A DNA stretch of 64,000 nucleotides, taken from positions 124,001 to 188,000 of the forward strand of contig CANPZC010000001.1 in NCBI GenBank assembly GCA_947589355.1. The letters run 5' to 3'. A program made the translations under genes and the position numbers. Numbering within the stretch: the first letter of the stretch is position 1; the number at the start of each line of letters is the position of its first letter. The DNA comes from an uncultured Clostridia bacterium. Lineage in GTDB: Bacteria > Bacillota > Clostridia > Oscillospirales > Ruminococcaceae. Below are positions 2,572 to 25,682 of the stretch, piece by piece. The notes beneath the pieces were generated by a model. That model worked only from the letters and a program-made list of their open reading frames with translations, was not told the origin of the DNA and did no database searches.

Positions 2572-5559
2572 TTAGTATAGACCTTTAATGTACTTCGCCG
2601 TGAACCTCTGCATTCTGCTCATCTTTTCATAGCATATCTCGCGCACCTTTTTCAAAAGCGCGATCATCTGTTCGTTTTCTTCATGCGTAATTTCTCCGCC
2701 GCTCATGCCTGCTTCTACAGCCAGCCCACACGCAGCCCTCAGTTCATCGCCAAGCCCCGTGATACCTGCCTTTTCCAGCATACCGCACAGCTTTTCGCAC
2801 CTGTCCTTGTCCGAGATATTCTCACCGCACCTTATGCCAATGCACGCCAGATATATTAGCACAATGTCGTAAATGTTCACAGCGCGCCTGTTTTGGTTTT
2901 CCTCGTTTATGCTGTCTTTCAAGCCACGTTTTATAGCGCTTATGCACGCCAGATACGCCAGCACGAACATCGCAATTATCAGCGCTGCCGCGCCCACCGT
3001 CAGAAGTATGTCTTTAACTTTCGAGCTGCCGCTGCTTCCCGAATTTTCGTTTCCGCTGCCGTTTTCGGTAGTCGTAATCGTCTCGCTTTCGCTGACCTGC
3101 GGAGCGGTAGTTACCTCGGTCGTTGTCGTGGTGCTTTCAGTAGTCGTCGTTACCTCCGTCGGCGCGGTGGTAGTGGTGGTCGTCTCACTGCCGGACGCAG
3201 TTTCCGTGCTGTTGCTGCCGTAGAAGCTGCTTACCGAAAGCGTCAGGTCAACAGGCAGCCAGCCCACCCCGGGGAGAAATACTTCTGCCCATGCGTGAGC
3301 GTAGTTGTCTTTTACGTCTATGGAATACTTGTTGTCGCCGTTTATCTTCAGACCGCTTCTCAGATCCGAAGATGGTATCATAAACCCCTCGGCGTATCTT
3401 GCAGGTATGCCGTAGTGCCGCAGTATCTCAACAGCCGCGCTGGAAAAATACGTGCATGAACCCGTGTTCATGTCAGTCAGAAAATATTCAATAAAATCTC
3501 TGCCCGACGGCGTTTTCGGGTTTTGCAAAGAGTATGTGTAGTGCTGATCAAAGTATGTTCCTATCGCGCTTATAACCGTATTAACGTGTGATATGTAGCT
3601 TATTATAAACGGCATACCGCCAATTGTCATGTATCCGCTCAAAAGGTCATACTGATCGTCCGCGACCCTCTGCTGCTCATAAAGACTGTCCAGTTCTTCA
3701 AGCACAGCCTCGTCAATGTTTATGTCGGGCGTGGTGTAGTGTTCAAATGCGTAATTTGTGTAAATACACTCACTCTCACGTTCGCTGACCGACGAAACCT
3801 GATTTAAATAATTTTCGTAAGCCAGCCTTGTAAGCGTATCAAGATCAGAATCCACAGGCCTGATCGTGTAGTCGTTATTGTTCAGAACGTCCAGCCGTAT
3901 CGGGTATCTTTCAGCTATAGTGCCGCCTTCGCGGTACTCTTTTATGTGCGCGTAATACTGCGGCTGATCCAGCCCCGCATTAAGATATATGTTCAAGCCG
4001 CTGACAAGCTCTTCCATGTATTCTTCTTCAATACCCAGCTTCTGCGACAGCTTTGTCAACGGTATCTGCTCCAGCACCGCCAGAGGTGTCACGCTCTCAT
4101 CTTCCTGCGCTTTCTGTGCGTATGTAGCAGCAAAATATGAAAACGTATCAAAATCAAAAGCGCTGTAGCTGTAATTATATGCGTTATCCATGCTGGGAAA
4201 ACTTGCACCGCCCTCTATGAACGTCAACTCATAGCTGCTCTTGTCGGCTGTTATGTTGTCGTATGTTACGTCCTTTATTTCATCGATCCCCAAATACGAC
4301 GAATAATATGGCGCAAACAGTGTTCCGCTTTTCATAAGGTCGGTTATTGCAGCCCTGTTTTGTTTGAGACCTACATCTGAGAAGAAAAAGTAAGGCATAC
4401 TTAAATTATTAACGGGATATTTTCCTGCCGCTTCATTTATCGGTGTTTTTTCACTGCGCCAACGGCTGTCTGAATATTTTCCTGCCGCGTACCCTCTCAG
4501 ATATATGCTGCCCCCCGGGTAGCTGTCAAATGCTATCTCCATAAGTGTTTTGTTCTGGAATCTTATGTCGTTTACCTTTCTGAGATCCCCCTTAGCCATT
4601 CCGCCCGATACAGAAGCCGCACCCAGGTCGGATACAGAGGGCGTAAACGGCAGTTCTATGCCGCTAAGCTCACGCAGCGTGTTTACTATAGTCTTTACAG
4701 AAAAATCATAGGTAAGGTTTCTGCGCATAATGTTTATCTTGTCGCTGCGTTCATACCCCGAGAGCGCCGAGCCTGCAATACCCAGAAGCAAAGCCGCCGC
4801 CATAATTATGCACAACTGCATTGAAAGCTGCCCGAACGCAGAGTTTTTCATACCGCGCTGGGTCATATAGAAAATGTTCTTTTTCTTTTGCCGTGTAAAA
4901 ATGTTATTTTTGCCTGCGCGGTTAGCGTGGTAGTCGTTCAGCTGCATAGCAAAAACGCATACCCACGCCGCCACCAGCAAAAACGCCGTAAAATAGTTGG
5001 GCGCATTGCCGTTGTAAAGACCCACCTCGGGCAGTATAAAGCTTACCGCAAACGTGAATATGAAATTCTTTGTGATAAAAACGCTGTAGTATAATACCAG
5101 TATCATCAGCAGCATATACGCGTGCAGTAAAAGAGTCATCGCCGCGCTGCTTGTAAGATCGGTTGCTAAAGAACTTGATATATTGACCGAAGTACCCAGC
5201 AGCTGCGCGTATTTTTCTATCAGTACAGCCGCCCCGTATACAACATCATCTCTCCGCCATAAAAGCAAAAGTATGCATATCAGCACTGTGCCGATCTTGT
5301 ATGACTTTTTCGGCGCAAAGCAAAGTATCGCGCTAAGCAGTATACTTTCAAAGAAAGGCCAGAAAAGCGGCAAAGATACATTTATATAGCTAAGCCCCGT
5401 CAGCAGGCTGCACAGCGCGATAACGTTCAGAAGTATGTACTGTATGAGACCGTCGGAGAACTTATACTCGCGTTTGGTTATCATGCCAACATCGGGCTGT
5501 ATGCTTATCTTTGACGGGCTGTCAAAATTCAGCTTTTTGCTTATTTTCATTTTACGCAA
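2572..5559 (-). CDS. Membrane transglutaminase-like domain protein with Thr/Ser-rich linker
   Basis: N-terminal TM segments; GSCTYFSSAAVEILRHYGIPARYAEGF and YAHAWAEVFLPGVGWLPVDLT (Cys-His-Asp transglutaminase core). Confidence 0.88.
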   Translation of the reverse strand: MRKMKISKKLNFDSPSKISIQPDVGMITKREYKFSDGLIQYILLNVIALCSLLTGLSYINVSLPLFWPFFESILLSAILCFAPKKSYKIGTVLICILLLLWRRDDVVYGAAVLIEKYAQLLGTSVNISSSLATDLTSSAAMTLLLHAYMLLMILVLYYSVFITKNFIFTFAVSFILPEVGLYNGNAPNYFTAFLLVAAWVCVFAMQLNDYHANRAGKNNIFTRQKKKNIFYMTQRGMKNSAFGQLSMQLCIIMAAALLLGIAGSALSGYERSDKINIMRRNLTYDFSVKTIVNTLRELSGIELPFTPSVSDLGAASVSGGMAKGDLRKVNDIRFQNKTLMEIAFDSYPGGSIYLRGYAAGKYSDSRWRSEKTPINEAAGKYPVNNLSMPYFFFSDVGLKQNRAAITDLMKSGTLFAPYYSSYLGIDEIKDVTYDNITADKSSYELTFIEGGASFPSMDNAYNYSYSAFDFDTFSYFAATYAQKAQEDESVTPLAVLEQIPLTKLSQKLGIEEEYMEELVSGLNIYLNAGLDQPQYYAHIKEYREGGTIAERYPIRLDVLNNNDYTIRPVDSDLDTLTRLAYENYLNQVSSVSERESECIYTNYAFEHYTTPDINIDEAVLEELDSLYEQQRVADDQYDLLSGYMTIGGMPFIISYISHVNTVISAIGTYFDQHYTYSLQNPKTPSGRDFIEYFLTDMNTGSCTYFSSAAVEILRHYGIPARYAEGFMIPSSDLRSGLKINGDNKYSIDVKDNYAHAWAEVFLPGVGWLPVDLTLSVSSFYGSNSTETASGSETTTTTTAPTEVTTTTESTTTTTEVTTAPQVSESETITTTENGSGNENSGSSGSSKVKDILLTVGAAALIIAMFVLAYLACISAIKRGLKDSINEENQNRRAVNIYDIVLIYLACIGIRCGENISDKDRCEKLCGMLEKAGITGLGDELRAACGLAVEAGMSGGEITHEENEQMIALLKKVREICYEKMSRMQRFTAKYIKGLY

Positions 5560-5582
5560 ACCTCTTGGTATATATCATGTTA

Positions 5583-6791
5583 TCAGATTATCATGTCCGA
5601 AAGAGCCGACATTCCGCTTTCTCCTCCGACAAAAATAAACTGCGTCAAATCGTCAGTTTCCTGCGGCAGAGGAGCTTTTTTAGAATTTGGCAAACAGCAT
5701 ATAACAGTCTTTTTAAGTCCGCGCTCATCGCTGCCAAGACTATCATATAACTGCTCGTCCGCGCCGTCGGTAATTATAATAACGTGCGAAAACTTCGGCG
5801 CTTCACCGCTGCCCAGCTGCGAAAAATACTCCTCTATCGCATCATACGGCTTTGAAACATCTATCTTGTATGAAAATATCGCAGACAAAAAATTAAGATA
5901 GCTCTCTGTATCAGCCACCGCCGCAGATATGTTCTTTCCGTTCGCGCTCCATATAAACGTGTGCAAAGCATCGTTTTCAAGCATTGCAAAACTCAGCGAT
6001 GCCGCGGCGCACATTATCCTGCTGTAGCTTTCTGCAATACCGCAGTCATTCTCTCTCATGTGCGACGGCGGACAAATTACGAACGCAATGTCATTGGATA
6101 CAGGCTTTGAAAATTCTTTTACAATAAGCTCGTCTTGCCGCACCGATGCTTTCCAGTGTATGCGGTTCATCTTGTCGCCGGGGCGGTATTCGTGCAGCTG
6201 AAATATCTCCGATGGGTCGTCGCCTGCCTGCCGCTTTGAGAATCTGTCGCTTTCGCTGTCAAAATTCTGATAAAGCGCCAGCTGCGGCTCAATGGGTATC
6301 ATCTTCGGGCATACCATAACGCTCGCAGTGATGTTTTTGCAGCGCACCCTTTTTGAAAACAGCCTTATCATGTCGTATATTCGCGCCTTTATCAGCTTTA
6401 CCTCTATAATACCGCAGTACTGCGCCGAAATTTTCAAACATATCTGCTGTTCGTTTTTTGCAAACACGGGGGTGTGTATCTCCAGCCGCTTTTCAACTCC
6501 GTCAAGCAGATTTCTATACCCCACGGTTATTTTTATGCAGGATACCGCGAATATCGAATCGTTCTTAATGCTTAGCACCACAGGGGCGATCTCACCCTCG
6601 CTGCAGCTGTTTGAAAGGCTTAGCATCGACATTTTTATCTTCCTTGCACATATCAGCATGACTATAAGCAAAAGCACGGGCGTAATTATCGCCGCAAGGA
6701 GCAGATAGAACGAAAAAATATCAACATAAAGCACATAAAACAGCGCGCAGCCTATAAGTATTATCAGATAAAAAATACCTATTATAAGCAT
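5583..6791 (-). CDS. DUF58 domain protein
   Basis: EYRPGDKMNRIHWKASVRQDELIVKEF motif; next to transglutaminase and MoxR. Confidence 0.88.
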   Translation of the reverse strand: MLIIGIFYLIILIGCALFYVLYVDIFSFYLLLAAIITPVLLLIVMLICARKIKMSMLSLSNSCSEGEIAPVVLSIKNDSIFAVSCIKITVGYRNLLDGVEKRLEIHTPVFAKNEQQICLKISAQYCGIIEVKLIKARIYDMIRLFSKRVRCKNITASVMVCPKMIPIEPQLALYQNFDSESDRFSKRQAGDDPSEIFQLHEYRPGDKMNRIHWKASVRQDELIVKEFSKPVSNDIAFVICPPSHMRENDCGIAESYSRIMCAAASLSFAMLENDALHTFIWSANGKNISAAVADTESYLNFLSAIFSYKIDVSKPYDAIEEYFSQLGSGEAPKFSHVIIITDGADEQLYDSLGSDERGLKKTVICCLPNSKKAPLPQETDDLTQFIFVGGESGMSALSDMII

Positions 6792-6792
6792 A

Positions 6793-7764
6793 TCATCTGT
6801 CCTTTGAAACGCGCGGCACCGGTATCTGTCCTATCACCTGCGAGAGTACGTCAGAGGCAGTCGCACCGCTTGCCTTTGCGCTCGTGCTTAAAAGTATCCT
6901 GTGCGCCGAAACGTTGTTGAATACGTATTTTACATCATCGGGCGTTACATAACTTCTGCCCGTAAGCAAAGCGGTCGCCTTTGCAGCCCTGCACAGCGCC
7001 AGAGAACCTCTCGGGCTGAGTCCCAGCTTTATCATCGGGTGATTTCTCGTCGCATCTGCAAGCTTTGTAATGTACTGAAGTATAGCATCGTCAACGTAAA
7101 TGTTCTCTGTCACCCTCTGCGCGTCTATCAGCTGTTCTTTCGTAATAACGGGTACTACCTTGTCAAGAGGGTTCTCATTCTGGCGCGCTTTAAGCATATC
7201 AACTTCGCTCTCAATGCTCGGGTAACCCATGCTCAGCCTTTCCAGAAATCTGTCCAGCTGAGACTCCGGCAGCATCTGCGTTCCCACTGAACCAATAGGG
7301 TTTTGCGTTGCAATAACGAAAAAAGGCTTTGGTATCTCACGCGTAACGCCCTCAACGGTTATCTTTCCTTCCTCCATTATCTCAAGCAGCGCCGCCTGCG
7401 TTTTGCTCGAGGTACGGTTTATCTCGTCGGCAAGAAGAAGATTGCACAGCGCCGCGCCCTCCGAATACTCAAAAGTGCCTTTTTCTTTGTTGTATATTGA
7501 AAATCCCGTAATGTCGCTCGGCAGAACGTCCGGCGTGAACTGTACGCGCTTGTAGTCCAGAGAAAGCGCCTTTGAAAACGCCAGTGCCAAAGTCGTCTTG
7601 CCAACGCCGGGGTTGTCCTCCAGAAGAATATGTCCCTTTGAAAGTATGGCAATAAGAACAGATATTATAATATCGTCCTTGCCCACTATAACTTTTTTTA
7701 CCTCGTCAACCACCGCACGAGACCGCTCCAGTACCGCGGCGTGCTCCTGCGAAACCTTGTTCAT
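6793..7764 (-). CDS. MoxR family AAA+ ATPase
   Basis: GHILLEDNPGVGKTTLA, LLLADEINRTSSKTQAALLEIMEE, FFVIATQNPIG; start chosen from the AAAGGA SD. Confidence 0.92.
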   Translation of the reverse strand: MNKVSQEHAAVLERSRAVVDEVKKVIVGKDDIIISVLIAILSKGHILLEDNPGVGKTTLALAFSKALSLDYKRVQFTPDVLPSDITGFSIYNKEKGTFEYSEGAALCNLLLADEINRTSSKTQAALLEIMEEGKITVEGVTREIPKPFFVIATQNPIGSVGTQMLPESQLDRFLERLSMGYPSIESEVDMLKARQNENPLDKVVPVITKEQLIDAQRVTENIYVDDAILQYITKLADATRNHPMIKLGLSPRGSLALCRAAKATALLTGRSYVTPDDVKYVFNNVSAHRILLSTSAKASGATASDVLSQVIGQIPVPRVSKDR

Positions 7765-22835: not shown

Positions 22836-23720
22836 TTGTTTGGATATGTAAAAACGTATAAACCGCAAATGCGCATCTGCGAGTATGAAACGTATAAAGC
22901 GGTGTATTGCGGTCTTTGTAAATATATAGGCAAGCAGTATGGGCTTGTTCCGAGAATGGTGCTGAGTTACGACTTTGCGTTTTTGGCGCTTTTGGATCTT
23001 TCTCTGAAAGGCTGCCGACCCGATGTAAAACCGTGCAGATGTATCGCGCACCCGATAAAGAAAAGACCATGCGCTTTTTGCGGTGAGGGGTATGAGTATT
23101 CAGCCGCATCAGCGCAGATACTTATATACCATAAACTGCGCGATGATGTCTACGATAAAGGCGGCATAATGAAAAAACTCGCGGCAAGGCTGCTTTTGCT
23201 GTTTATGAAGAAAGGCTATAAAAAAGCCAAGGGTATGTACCCCCAGCTTGCCAAAAGTATAGAGCAGCAAATGATATTCCAGCAGCAGACCGAGCGCAAA
23301 CAGAACATTAGCATCGATGAAGCGATACAGCCCTCCGCCGCCATGATGGAAAGTATAGCCTCGGGTCTTTCAAAAGATTGCGATAAGCAGCAAATTTTGC
23401 GTAAGTTCGGCTATTTTATCGGCAGATTTGTGTACCTGTGCGACGCCGCCGATGATCTTCACGACGACATAAAACGCGGCGGTTATGACCCTCTGATAAA
23501 AGAGCTCGATCTGCACGACAGCATCAGCGAGAGCGACTGCGGCAGAATTAAAGAGTATATGATAAACAGCGTGAATATGACGCTTTCTGCGCTGGCAGAC
23601 TATTACGTACAGCTGGAGATAAAAAATTTCAAACCCATACTAGATAATATCGTGTATATGGGGCTCAAAGCCTCCTGCGAGGCAGTGCTTGAAAAGAGAT
23701 TTTCTATAGAAGAAAAGTAA
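22836..23720 (+). CDS. DUF5685-like protein with Cys clusters and two Asp-rich motifs
   Basis: YCGLCKYIGKQYGLVPRMVLSYDFAFLALL; CRCIAHPIKKRPCAFC; HKLRDDVYDKGG; DAADDLHDDIKRGGYDPL. Confidence 0.75.
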   Translation: MFGYVKTYKPQMRICEYETYKAVYCGLCKYIGKQYGLVPRMVLSYDFAFLALLDLSLKGCRPDVKPCRCIAHPIKKRPCAFCGEGYEYSAASAQILIYHKLRDDVYDKGGIMKKLAARLLLLFMKKGYKKAKGMYPQLAKSIEQQMIFQQQTERKQNISIDEAIQPSAAMMESIASGLSKDCDKQQILRKFGYFIGRFVYLCDAADDLHDDIKRGGYDPLIKELDLHDSISESDCGRIKEYMINSVNMTLSALADYYVQLEIKNFKPILDNIVYMGLKASCEAVLEKRFSIEEK

Positions 23721-23749: not shown

Positions 23750-24364
23750 ATGACAGATCCTTACAAAATTTTGGGAGTTTCGCCCTCAGCAAGCGACGAC
23801 GAGGTAAGATCGGCTTACAGAGAGCTTGCAAAAAAATATCACCCCGATAACTATGCAGACAATCCACTCAGCGATCTAGCCAACGAGAAGATGTCCGAGA
23901 TAAACGAGGCGTATGACCAAATAATGAATATGCGCCGAGGCGGCAGCAGCACAGCAGGAGAGAGTACCGCATACGGAAACGCAAGCTATAACCACGTCCG
24001 CGAACTTATCCGCAGCGGCAATGTTTCAGAAGCCGATAATATCTTAAACGGCATACCCGAATACAGCAGAAACGCCGAATGGTATTTCCTCAAAGGCAGC
24101 GTAGCCTATTCAAGGGGCTGGCTGAATGATGCCTATTCAAACTTTTCGCGTGCCTGCTCGATGGACCCTTCCAACAAAGAGTACAGTGCAGCCATGAACC
24201 AGATGAACCAGCGCCGCAGCGGCTATATGAACGGCGAGGGCTCTCAGCACTATAATATGGGCAGCGACAGACCCGGCTGCGGCCCGTGTGATATGTGCCA
24301 AGCGCTTATCTGTACCGACTGCTGCTGCGAATGTATGGGCGGCGACTTCATTTCCTGCTGCTGA
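23750..24364 (+). CDS. J-domain protein with Cys-rich C-terminus
   Basis: DPYKILGVSPSASDDEVRSAYRELAKKYHPDNY (HPD); C-terminal CGPCDMCQALICTDCCCECMGGDFISCC. Confidence 0.88.
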   Translation: MTDPYKILGVSPSASDDEVRSAYRELAKKYHPDNYADNPLSDLANEKMSEINEAYDQIMNMRRGGSSTAGESTAYGNASYNHVRELIRSGNVSEADNILNGIPEYSRNAEWYFLKGSVAYSRGWLNDAYSNFSRACSMDPSNKEYSAAMNQMNQRRSGYMNGEGSQHYNMGSDRPGCGPCDMCQALICTDCCCECMGGDFISCC

Positions 24365-24380: not shown

Positions 24381-24929
24381 ATGAAAAAGAAAAGTTATAA
24401 AATTGCCCTCGGCGGCGTGGTGTCGTCACTGAGCTTGGTCGTCATGCTGCTTGCCTCCGTGATACCGGGGCTTGAATATACTATCCCTGCGCTGGCAGGC
24501 ATTCTGCTTATAGTAATAGTTATCGAGATAAACCTGCGGTGGGCGCTGCTTTCGTATGCCGCCGTCGCACTGCTTACGTTTTTTATCGTGCCTAATAAAG
24601 AATCAGGTCTTTTGTATATCACATTCATGGGCTATTACCCTATAATAAAATCTGTATTTGAAACAAAGATAAAGCCGCGCGCAGGGCAGTGGGCGGCAAA
24701 ATTTGCGCTGTTCAACGCCGCGCTTGTGGTGTATTATCAGCTTGTAAAACTGCTGGTAGTAAGTCAGGAGCTCACCGAATCGCTCGGCAAATACGGCAAA
24801 TATTCGCTGATAATTATGCTGGGTCTGGCAAACGTAGTGTTCCTTGTGTACGATGTAGCCCTTACCAATATAATAACCGCCTATATGAAGTGGTTTCGCA
24901 AAAAGTTCATTAAACATATAGATAAGTAG
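24381..24929 (+). CDS. Hypothetical polytopic membrane protein
   Basis: About five hydrophobic segments; co-directional with short gaps. Confidence 0.7.
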   Translation: MKKKSYKIALGGVVSSLSLVVMLLASVIPGLEYTIPALAGILLIVIVIEINLRWALLSYAAVALLTFFIVPNKESGLLYITFMGYYPIIKSVFETKIKPRAGQWAAKFALFNAALVVYYQLVKLLVVSQELTESLGKYGKYSLIIMLGLANVVFLVYDVALTNIITAYMKWFRKKFIKHIDK

Positions 24930-24947: not shown

Positions 24948-25682
24948 ATGGGAGAATACGATAAGTACCTGCTTGACAAAAATTCGTCAACATATAAACG
25001 GCGGATCATAGTAAGAGTGATAACCTTGGTGCTTGTCCTCGGCATTTCAACATACCTCGTGTTCAAGCTCTATCCATATGTAGAGTTTATAAAAACACAG
25101 GAGGGCAGGAAATACCTCAAAAGCATCGTCGATGACAATATGCTAAAAGGTGTGCTGCTGTTCACTGCGTGTCAAGCGCTGCAAGTTATAATACCCGTCC
25201 TGCCGCCGCTGCAAATCGTCAGCGGTATGCTCTTCGGCTCAGTGCTCGGCACATTGCTTTCAATACTCGGTATAGTGCTTGGCTCAACGGTGGTGTTTTT
25301 TCTCGTCAAGTGGCTGGGCTATTCGTTTGTGCAAACCATGCTTGACGAAAAAAAGCTGCACCGCTTCAAATTTCTGTATGACGAAAACAAAGTCGTCACC
25401 ATAATGGCAATAATGTTTCTCGTCCCGGGCTTCCCGAAAGATATGCTAACATTCGTGCTGCCGCTCACAAAAATGTCAAAGAAAGACTTCTTTTTCGTAA
25501 TAATGCCTGCCCGAGTGCCTGCCTTGGTGCTGTCATCGGTCGTCGGCGGCTGTATACGCAGCGAGAATTATATCGCAGCAGGCGTGTTCTCGGTCTGCGT
25601 GCTTGCGCTCTCTGTCATCGGCATACTCTACCGCGATAAAATAGTCGAAAAATTCCATAGAGAGCATTCTAAAAATAAGTGA
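24948..25682 (+). CDS. TVP38/TMEM64 (VTT/DedA-like) membrane protein
   Basis: QIVSGMLFGSVLGTLLSILGIVLGSTVVFFLVKWLGY; FLVPGFPKDMLTFVLPLTKMS. Confidence 0.85.
   Translation: MGEYDKYLLDKNSSTYKRRIIVRVITLVLVLGISTYLVFKLYPYVEFIKTQEGRKYLKSIVDDNMLKGVLLFTACQALQVIIPVLPPLQIVSGMLFGSVLGTLLSILGIVLGSTVVFFLVKWLGYSFVQTMLDEKKLHRFKFLYDENKVVTIMAIMFLVPGFPKDMLTFVLPLTKMSKKDFFFVIMPARVPALVLSSVVGGCIRSENYIAAGVFSVCVLALSVIGILYRDKIVEKFHREHSKNK

Follow-up and report, generated by a model that had tools for sequence, protein, structure and literature searches.

DUF5685 proteins with a predicted class I isoprenoid-synthase fold are paired with proteins and peptides ending in cysteines, suggesting a bacterial cysteine prenyltransferase

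Introduction

The closest described systems to the one analysed here are ComQ, the prenyltransferase of the ComQXPA pheromone system, and PalQ, two enzymes of the isoprenoid-synthase fold, each of which prenylates its own co-encoded peptide near the C-terminus (PMC5331326, PMC10853753). The residue that they prenylate is a tryptophan, and their second Asp motif is degenerate (PMC5331326, PMC10853753); the first Asp motif of ComQ is essential (PMC5331326). According to a 2026 review, the characterised prenyltransferases that resemble trans-isoprenyl diphosphate synthases (trans-IDS) all target tryptophan (PMC13290415). A cysteine acceptor would therefore be new for enzymes of this kind.

Prenylation of protein cysteines is, to our knowledge, regarded as eukaryotic. 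The substrates of the protein farnesyl- and geranylgeranyltransferases include Rab proteins ending in -CC or -CXC and the J-protein Ydj1, which is farnesylated, and another J-protein, the cysteine-string protein CSP, is palmitoylated. In the farnesyltransferase, Zn2+ activates the thiol.

DUF5685 (PF18937) has no assigned function; in the open-access literature a single paper names it, and there it is no more than listed (PMC9403866). Here, we analyse a member encoded in a 64,000-nucleotide stretch of the genome of an uncultured Clostridia bacterium (the window). Like ComQ and PalQ, it is placed by prediction in the class I isoprenoid-synthase superfamily, has an Asp-rich first motif, shows no close sequence relation to the classical families, and is co-encoded with the protein or peptide that it would modify near the C-terminus. 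Unlike them, it has a complete second motif (D-xxx-D-xxx-D) and a conserved trio of cysteines, and its partners end in cysteines. This pairing suggests that DUF5685 transfers an isoprenoid lipid to the cysteines of the partner. With its placement among the isoprenoid synthases and a candidate acceptor named, a domain that had no known function becomes an enzyme–substrate pair open to direct test.

Results and discussion

The DUF5685 gene and its distribution

The gene occupies an exact open reading frame on the forward strand of the window (22836..23720; 294 aa plus stop). The sequence-only reading of this DNA had called the product DUF5685-like, and the Pfam search agrees: PF18937 matches residues 1-281 with E 4.6e-78 and 262.8 bits, against a curated cut-off of 26.7. 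This is the sole Pfam match at E up to 1, a range in which neither PF00494 (squalene/phytoene synthase) nor PF00348 (polyprenyl synthetase) was matched, and the NCBIfam families gave no match. Nor does the family share the two DDxxD motifs of the polyprenyl synthetases, residue 104 being variable and the second motif a DxxxDxxxD. The frame opens with TTG behind a GGGG Shine-Dalgarno-like run, recN lies directly 5' of it, and the next gene starts after a gap of 29 bp. The family is carried by 74 of 100 genomes closely related to that of the window, by 310 of the 396 sampled genomes of the order, many gut bacteria among them, and by 20 of the 200 phylum genomes sampled; Thermotoga maritima is the only carrier among 14 control genomes.

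Predicted fold and relation to isoprenoid synthases

We built an AlphaFold2 model of the DUF5685 protein on an alignment of 77 sequences. The model (pLDDT 95.6, pTM 0.92) consists entirely of helices apart from one beta hairpin at residues 63-81. When it was compared with the PDB using Foldseek, the 50 best matches were all class I trans-isoprenyl diphosphate synthases (probability 1.00, best E 3.4e-4, TM 0.38-0.63); viral structures gave merely weak prenyltransferase matches. HMMER searches against the PDB sequences, with a single sequence and with a profile, returned no meaningful relative. The designed helical repeats that came up in the profile search were rejected as relatives, what had matched being one low-complexity helix region.

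An unguided hhalign comparison with the squalene/phytoene synthase (SQS/PSY) profile set both Asp motifs in register over 118 columns. In motif 1, LRDDVYDKG lies opposite RRADDAVDEK; in motif 2, D203xxxD207xxxD211 lies opposite NxxxDxxxD, and the alignment ends with K-R-G-x-Y opposite G-R-x-Y. This alignment is weak when taken alone (E 0.0026, probability 11%), and it is the best among 20 non-self profiles, of which the isoprenyl-diphosphate-synthase profile ranks third and is aligned at motif 2 only. The alignment agrees with the likeness to the squalene/phytoene synthase motifs that had been noticed from the sequence, and the structural comparison, of the kind that had been named as a check, supports the fold proposed from it. 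Together, the model, the Foldseek matches and the profile alignment show fold membership by prediction, and we hold it very probable that the DUF5685 protein has the class I isoprenoid-synthase fold. We do not claim membership of PF00494 or PF00348, because neither profile matches.

The comparison with these two families is informative in its details. The DUF5685 protein resembles the squalene/phytoene synthases in having a DxxxD and then an (N/D)xxxDxxxD followed by K/R-G-x-Y, but it has D203 in place of the N of NxxxDxxxD and, in addition, the cysteine trio, the beta hairpin and the partner gene. With the trans-isoprenyl diphosphate synthases (FPPS, GGPPS, OPPS) it shares the predicted fold, whereas its first motif is DxxxD and the second DDxxD, that of IPP binding, is absent. 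In the model, D103 and D107 are located at the C-terminal end of helix 87-106, and D203 and D207 at that of helix 182-206. Given the fold and these helix-end positions, the two Asp clusters would lie opposite one another in a single cavity.

Conservation of the Asp motifs and of three cysteines

Conservation was analysed in alignments of 28, 77 and 38 homologues, with a final set of 130 sequences. The first Asp region (residues 99-110) reads HKLRDDVYDKGG and the second (residues 200-220) YLCDAADDLHDDIKRGGYDPL; the sequence-only reading had singled out both and had named their conservation in homologues as a check. The motifs proper are D103xxxD107 (DDVYD; 23142..23156, forward strand), which hhalign aligns with DDxVD of PSY/SQS, and D203xxxD207xxxD211 (DAADDLHDD; 23442..23468, forward strand), an Asp triad with the spacing i, i+4, i+8 that aligns with NxxxDxxxD. 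Both are nearly invariant, beyond chance: the five Asp are each kept in 125-130 of the 130 homologues (D103 in 129, D107 in 125, D203 in 129, D207 in 126 and D211 in all 130), and the two motifs are retained in homologues down to 19% identity. Residue 104 is variable (D in 62 homologues, N in 41, T in 9), and motif 1 is therefore a DxxxD, as in the squalene/phytoene synthases, and not a DDxxD. The fold had been said to be either active or repurposed; the near-invariance of the motifs across these sequences favours an active over a dead protein.

The N-terminal cluster of cysteines that had been proposed (CGLCK...CRC...CAFC) holds in part. The pair C25-x-x-C28 in the first long helix (residues 14-35; 22908..22919, forward strand) and C69, which adjoins the beta hairpin according to DSSP (23040..23042, forward strand), are each conserved in 125 of the 130 homologues. 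C67, C79 and C82, from the CRC and CAFC elements, show no family-wide conservation in the same set.

A conserved cassette with a cysteine-tailed partner

We counted neighbouring genes in 80 homologous loci from other species and in 20 more distant loci. The next gene in the window (23750..24364, forward strand) encodes a protein of 204 aa with a J domain (PF00226, E 3.8e-17), weak TPR-like similarity and a C-terminus that ends, just before the stop, in the cysteine string ...CCCECMGGDFISCC. A gene for such a protein is the next one after DUF5685 in 78 of the 80 homologous loci, and a relative of it is adjacent in 17 of the 20 more distant ones. Among the carriers of the cassette is a culturable host, Ruminococcus bicirculans 80/3 (L059). 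This strict pairing lies outside the coordinates that the sequence-only reading had covered. That reading had also pointed to ispA and dxs upstream on the same strand. They are there, dxs ending 4.0 kb and ispA 5.9 kb upstream, but the linkage is not conserved: ispA, dxs and recN are found beside DUF5685 in 1 of the 80 loci, and that one is from the same genus. We thus rejected ispA/dxs as the functional context of DUF5685.

The Cys-rich tail of the partner, CGPCDMCQALICTDCCCECMGGDFISCC (24278..24361, forward strand), is the feature by which it is recognised. Among 95 partners, 94 have at least 4 Cys within the last 40 aa (median ten, against about one Cys in the remainder of the protein), and the lone exception runs into a contig end. 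A Cys is present within the last three residues of 87 of the 95, and 57 end in -CC, an ending found in none of 1156 background ORFs of the same loci. The tail is recognisable in DNA by its core motif CCECMGGD (24323..24346, forward strand), of which there are 33 distinct sites in the samples of 100 relatives (27 sites) and 200 phylum genomes (7 sites); the reversed control pattern has no match in either sample. All these sites but one follow a DUF5685 gene on the same strand at a distance of 398-816 bp, the 33rd (G035:C40:294) being at a contig start.

The tail is not tied to the J domain. In three loci (L180, L181, L174) a partner that lacks this domain retains the tail ...CCECMGGDFISCC or a close variant, for which reason we rejected the J domain as an essential part. 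In L177, there is no separate partner, and a Cys-string extension is fused to DUF5685 itself. The constant of the partner is the tail, not the chaperone domain. Two arrangements around these loci may be noted. In L180/L181 (about 4100-7174), a DUF3786 protein (PF12654) and a putative spermidine synthase are encoded upstream of DUF5685 and the J-less tail protein. In L177 (5995-8933), the DUF5685 gene with its own tail is followed by genes for a membrane-anchored protein, a polyprenyl synthetase and a prepilin-peptidase-like protein.

The polyprenyl synthetase gene of L177, one gene beyond the tail-fused DUF5685, bears on the possibility that DUF5685 is a small-molecule terpene synthase or a head-to-head prenyl synthase of the squalene/phytoene type, making an isoprenoid lipid that the Cys-tail protein anchors or chaperones. 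The fold and the register of the motifs, closest to that of SQS/PSY, point the same way. We consider this decidedly unlikely: PF00494 gives no match, the 80 cassette loci have no conserved terpenoid-pathway neighbour, and the three CCC peptides found in tandem next to a single DUF5685 (see below) resemble substrates rather than scaffolds. An isoprenyl-diphosphate-synthase neighbour was also rejected as a general feature, since outside L177, L178 and the same-genus L052 there is none in about 100 loci, which is near chance.

The cysteines within DUF5685 tend to be lost together with the partner. C25, C28 and C69 are absent solely from the same five of the 130 sequences (L207 and L214-L217), all of them second copies with no Cys-tail neighbour, and the trio is complete in every copy that has a partner. 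Four of the five also lack some of the Asp residues, and L207 retains all five. For these assignments we curated the partner flags, discounting that of L179 (an antisense ORF) and treating those of L074, L225 and L227 as false negatives. The link between partner loss and motif loss is strong, not perfect, because the apparently partnerless copies L088, L178, L179 and L230 keep every motif. The existence of degenerate second copies (L214-L217) could be taken to favour a catalytically dead adaptor, whose isoprenoid-synthase fold would merely bind a lipidated or unmodified tail; we judge this very unlikely, as the motifs are intact in nearly all other copies and the decay is confined to partnerless duplicates. 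The duplicates L214-L217 all belong to a single genus. Some are located next to glmS, and their open frames are conserved.

Cysteine-tailed peptides in RiPP-like clusters

In four RiPP-like loci, DUF5685 is paired with one or more peptides of ~50 aa that have Cys-rich ends, e.g. GCCC at the stop (peptide genes at L218:2972-3479, L264:5903-6052, L269:1481-1645 and L270:6230-6421). In L218, the DUF5685 gene is a divergent second copy (3486-4424). Upstream of it come three short ORFs in tandem (47, 52 and 57 aa), which end in GSGCCC, GSGCCC and SGGCCC and carry a DWTY motif. It is followed by a radical SAM (rSAM)/SPASM gene that has RiPP and sulfatase maturases as its best NCBIfam relatives. Also upstream are uppS (PF01255, 3.7e-65) and genes for a SprT/WLM-like protease and a DUF92 protein. 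L264, from another species, has a DUF5685 copy 43% identical to that of L218, a single peptide of 49 aa ending in DGCCC four bases upstream of it, an orthologous rSAM/SPASM gene (49% identity), an M48/SprT-like protease, and a DUF92 protein that has an additional domain at its N-terminus. L269 and L270 are from other families of the class and encode peptides ending in ...CSEFCGCLRVCCISLT and ...DCCMYECGCYKCCCCRMLY, each behind a good ribosome-binding site, together with M50 proteases, a degenerate rSAM-like protein and a relative of the L264 DUF92 protein. The latter shows 33% identity over its length in L269 and, in L270, 30% identity over the N-terminal domain; the L270 protein is also 30% identical to the N-terminal half of the L269 protein. 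The maturase relatives of L269 (4574-5608) and L270 (3903-4868) have lost the radical-SAM motif CxxxCxxC and retain a C-terminal SPASM-like Cys pattern.

PF01940 (DUF92) was matched in three of the four loci, the fourth having a relative by identity. The presence of DUF92 at these loci is not due to chance, because just one of the 100 relatives sampled around the window genome has it. We take the DUF92 family to contain VTE6, and the N-terminal domain of the DUF92-like protein has a GDxxA motif that is presumably like that of phytol/dolichol kinases. VTE5 and VTE6 phosphorylate phytol twice, yielding the diphosphate (PMC5694494). The peptides of the four loci apparently form an undescribed class.

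These peptides also bear on which residue would be modified. If DUF5685 prenylated a tryptophan or another aromatic residue of its partner, as ComQ does, and the cysteines served otherwise, this would agree with the known enzymes of the kind, which all act on Trp (PMC13290415), and with the DWTY motif of the L218 peptides. However, the L264, L269 and L270 peptides have no Trp, and the RiPP-like peptides share no Trp or Tyr position: the Cys-rich C-terminus is common to all, and Cys is the only shared residue. In the 95 partner tails, Trp is present in just 13, against at least four Cys within the last 40 aa in 94. Modification of an aromatic residue is thus highly improbable.

A proposed mechanism and its strongest rival

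Isoprenyl transfer from a diphosphate to a C-terminal cysteine of the neighbour is the reading that we prefer because it is the simplest one to cover all observations. By analogy with ComQ and PalQ, DUF5685 would be a class I isoprenoid-synthase-fold prenyltransferase that acts on C-terminal cysteines. D103xxxD107 and D203xxxD207xxxD211 would coordinate Mg2+ and, within the helical cavity, bind a prenyl diphosphate and ionise it. The trio C25/C28/C69 might be a metal or docking site that presents or activates the partner thiol, for which the metal-activated thiol of eukaryotic protein farnesyltransferase is an analogy. The acceptor would be the C-terminal Cys cluster encoded next door, which in the window is that of 23750-24364. 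At other loci a partner without a J domain, a tail carried by DUF5685 itself, or short RiPP-like peptides (with the ending GCCC, for instance) would take this part. The thioether lipid could then tether the J-protein to the membrane, at which it would recruit Hsp70, perhaps together with the S-component-like protein of 24381-24929, and in the RiPP-like clusters the same transfer would lipidate a secreted peptide. Chemistry on prenyl diphosphates is the likelier part of this scheme and, in our view, probable. The Cys tail has about an even chance of being the acceptor, and the full mechanism could equally well prove right or wrong. That DUF5685, equipped with an added metal site for thiol activation, founds a widespread bacterial protein S-prenylation, acting on the Cys string of a housekeeping J-protein in most genomes of the order and reused for short peptides in RiPP-like clusters that bring prenol-kinase-like genes of their own, is a more tentative proposal, to which we give somewhat less than an even chance.

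A cysteine acceptor is supported by the Cys-tail neighbours of the 78 and 17 loci described above and by tails that persist with the J domain gone or in cis; the link to isoprenoids is supported by DUF92/prenol-kinase-like genes in L218, L264, L269 and L270 and by uppS in L218. Against cysteine prenylation, the characterised trans-IDS-like enzymes all act on Trp (PMC13290415), most cassette loci have no nearby isoprenoid gene, the partnerless L088, L178, L179 and L230 keep all motifs, the hhalign probability alone is low, and a string of up to ten cysteines also resembles a metal-binding tail.

This resemblance makes metal or Fe-S handling the strongest rival. The tail would bind Zn2+, Cu+ or Fe-S, and DUF5685, its fold repurposed and its Asp motifs binding metal instead of a prenyl diphosphate, would receive or insert the metal through C25/C28/C69. 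The Cys trio and the Cys tail are lost or kept together, and the RiPP-like loci have rSAM/SPASM genes, both of which speak for such a pair. HscB is an example of a J-domain co-chaperone that serves in Fe-S assembly, and the partner has a J domain, with weak general J-domain similarity only. Metal handling would account for the cysteines, but it leaves unexplained the near-invariance of both prenyl-diphosphate motifs, the isoprenoid fold, and the DUF92/prenol-kinase-like and uppS genes of the RiPP-like clusters, and we regard it as unlikely.

If prenylation is the correct reading, Cys-directed transfer would be a reaction so far undescribed for the isoprenoid-synthase fold, and prenylated peptides would become available from a new source, the four RiPP-like clusters. 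Cysteine prenylation of a bacterial J-protein would have counterparts in two eukaryotic J-proteins, Ydj1 with its farnesyl group and the lipidated cysteine-string protein, in which a C-terminal Cys is likewise the lipid acceptor. The parallel would concern the substrates: the eukaryotic farnesyl- and geranylgeranyltransferases are heterodimeric alpha-alpha toroids of a fold unrelated to that of DUF5685, whose partners have no CaaX box.

Other genes of the cassette and matches in phage and plasmid collections

The third gene of the cassette (24381..24929, forward strand), present in that position in 75 of the 80 homologous loci, encodes a 182-aa membrane protein with a predicted ECF S-component-like fold (AlphaFold2 pLDDT 89.6; best Foldseek matches TmRibU, probability 0.99, E 0.07). 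It is a distant relative of DUF2232, PF09991 being weakly matched by 10 of 29 members of its family, and no ECF energising module was seen beside the gene in the window. Membrane docking and lipid handling are options for a protein with such a model. The same apparent operon continues with a VTT-domain (DedA-like) membrane protein (24948..25682, forward strand; PF09335, E 3.6e-19), which is loosely linked to DUF5685 (5 of 80 loci).

A search for a mobile origin gave two DUF5685 matches in the phage collection and two in the plasmid collection. Two records of uncultured gut 'Bacteriophage sp.', MT835652.1 (15937-16752) and MT835850.1 (822-1625), encode DUF5685 proteins of 28-29% identity, which could be phage cargo or bacterial contamination.
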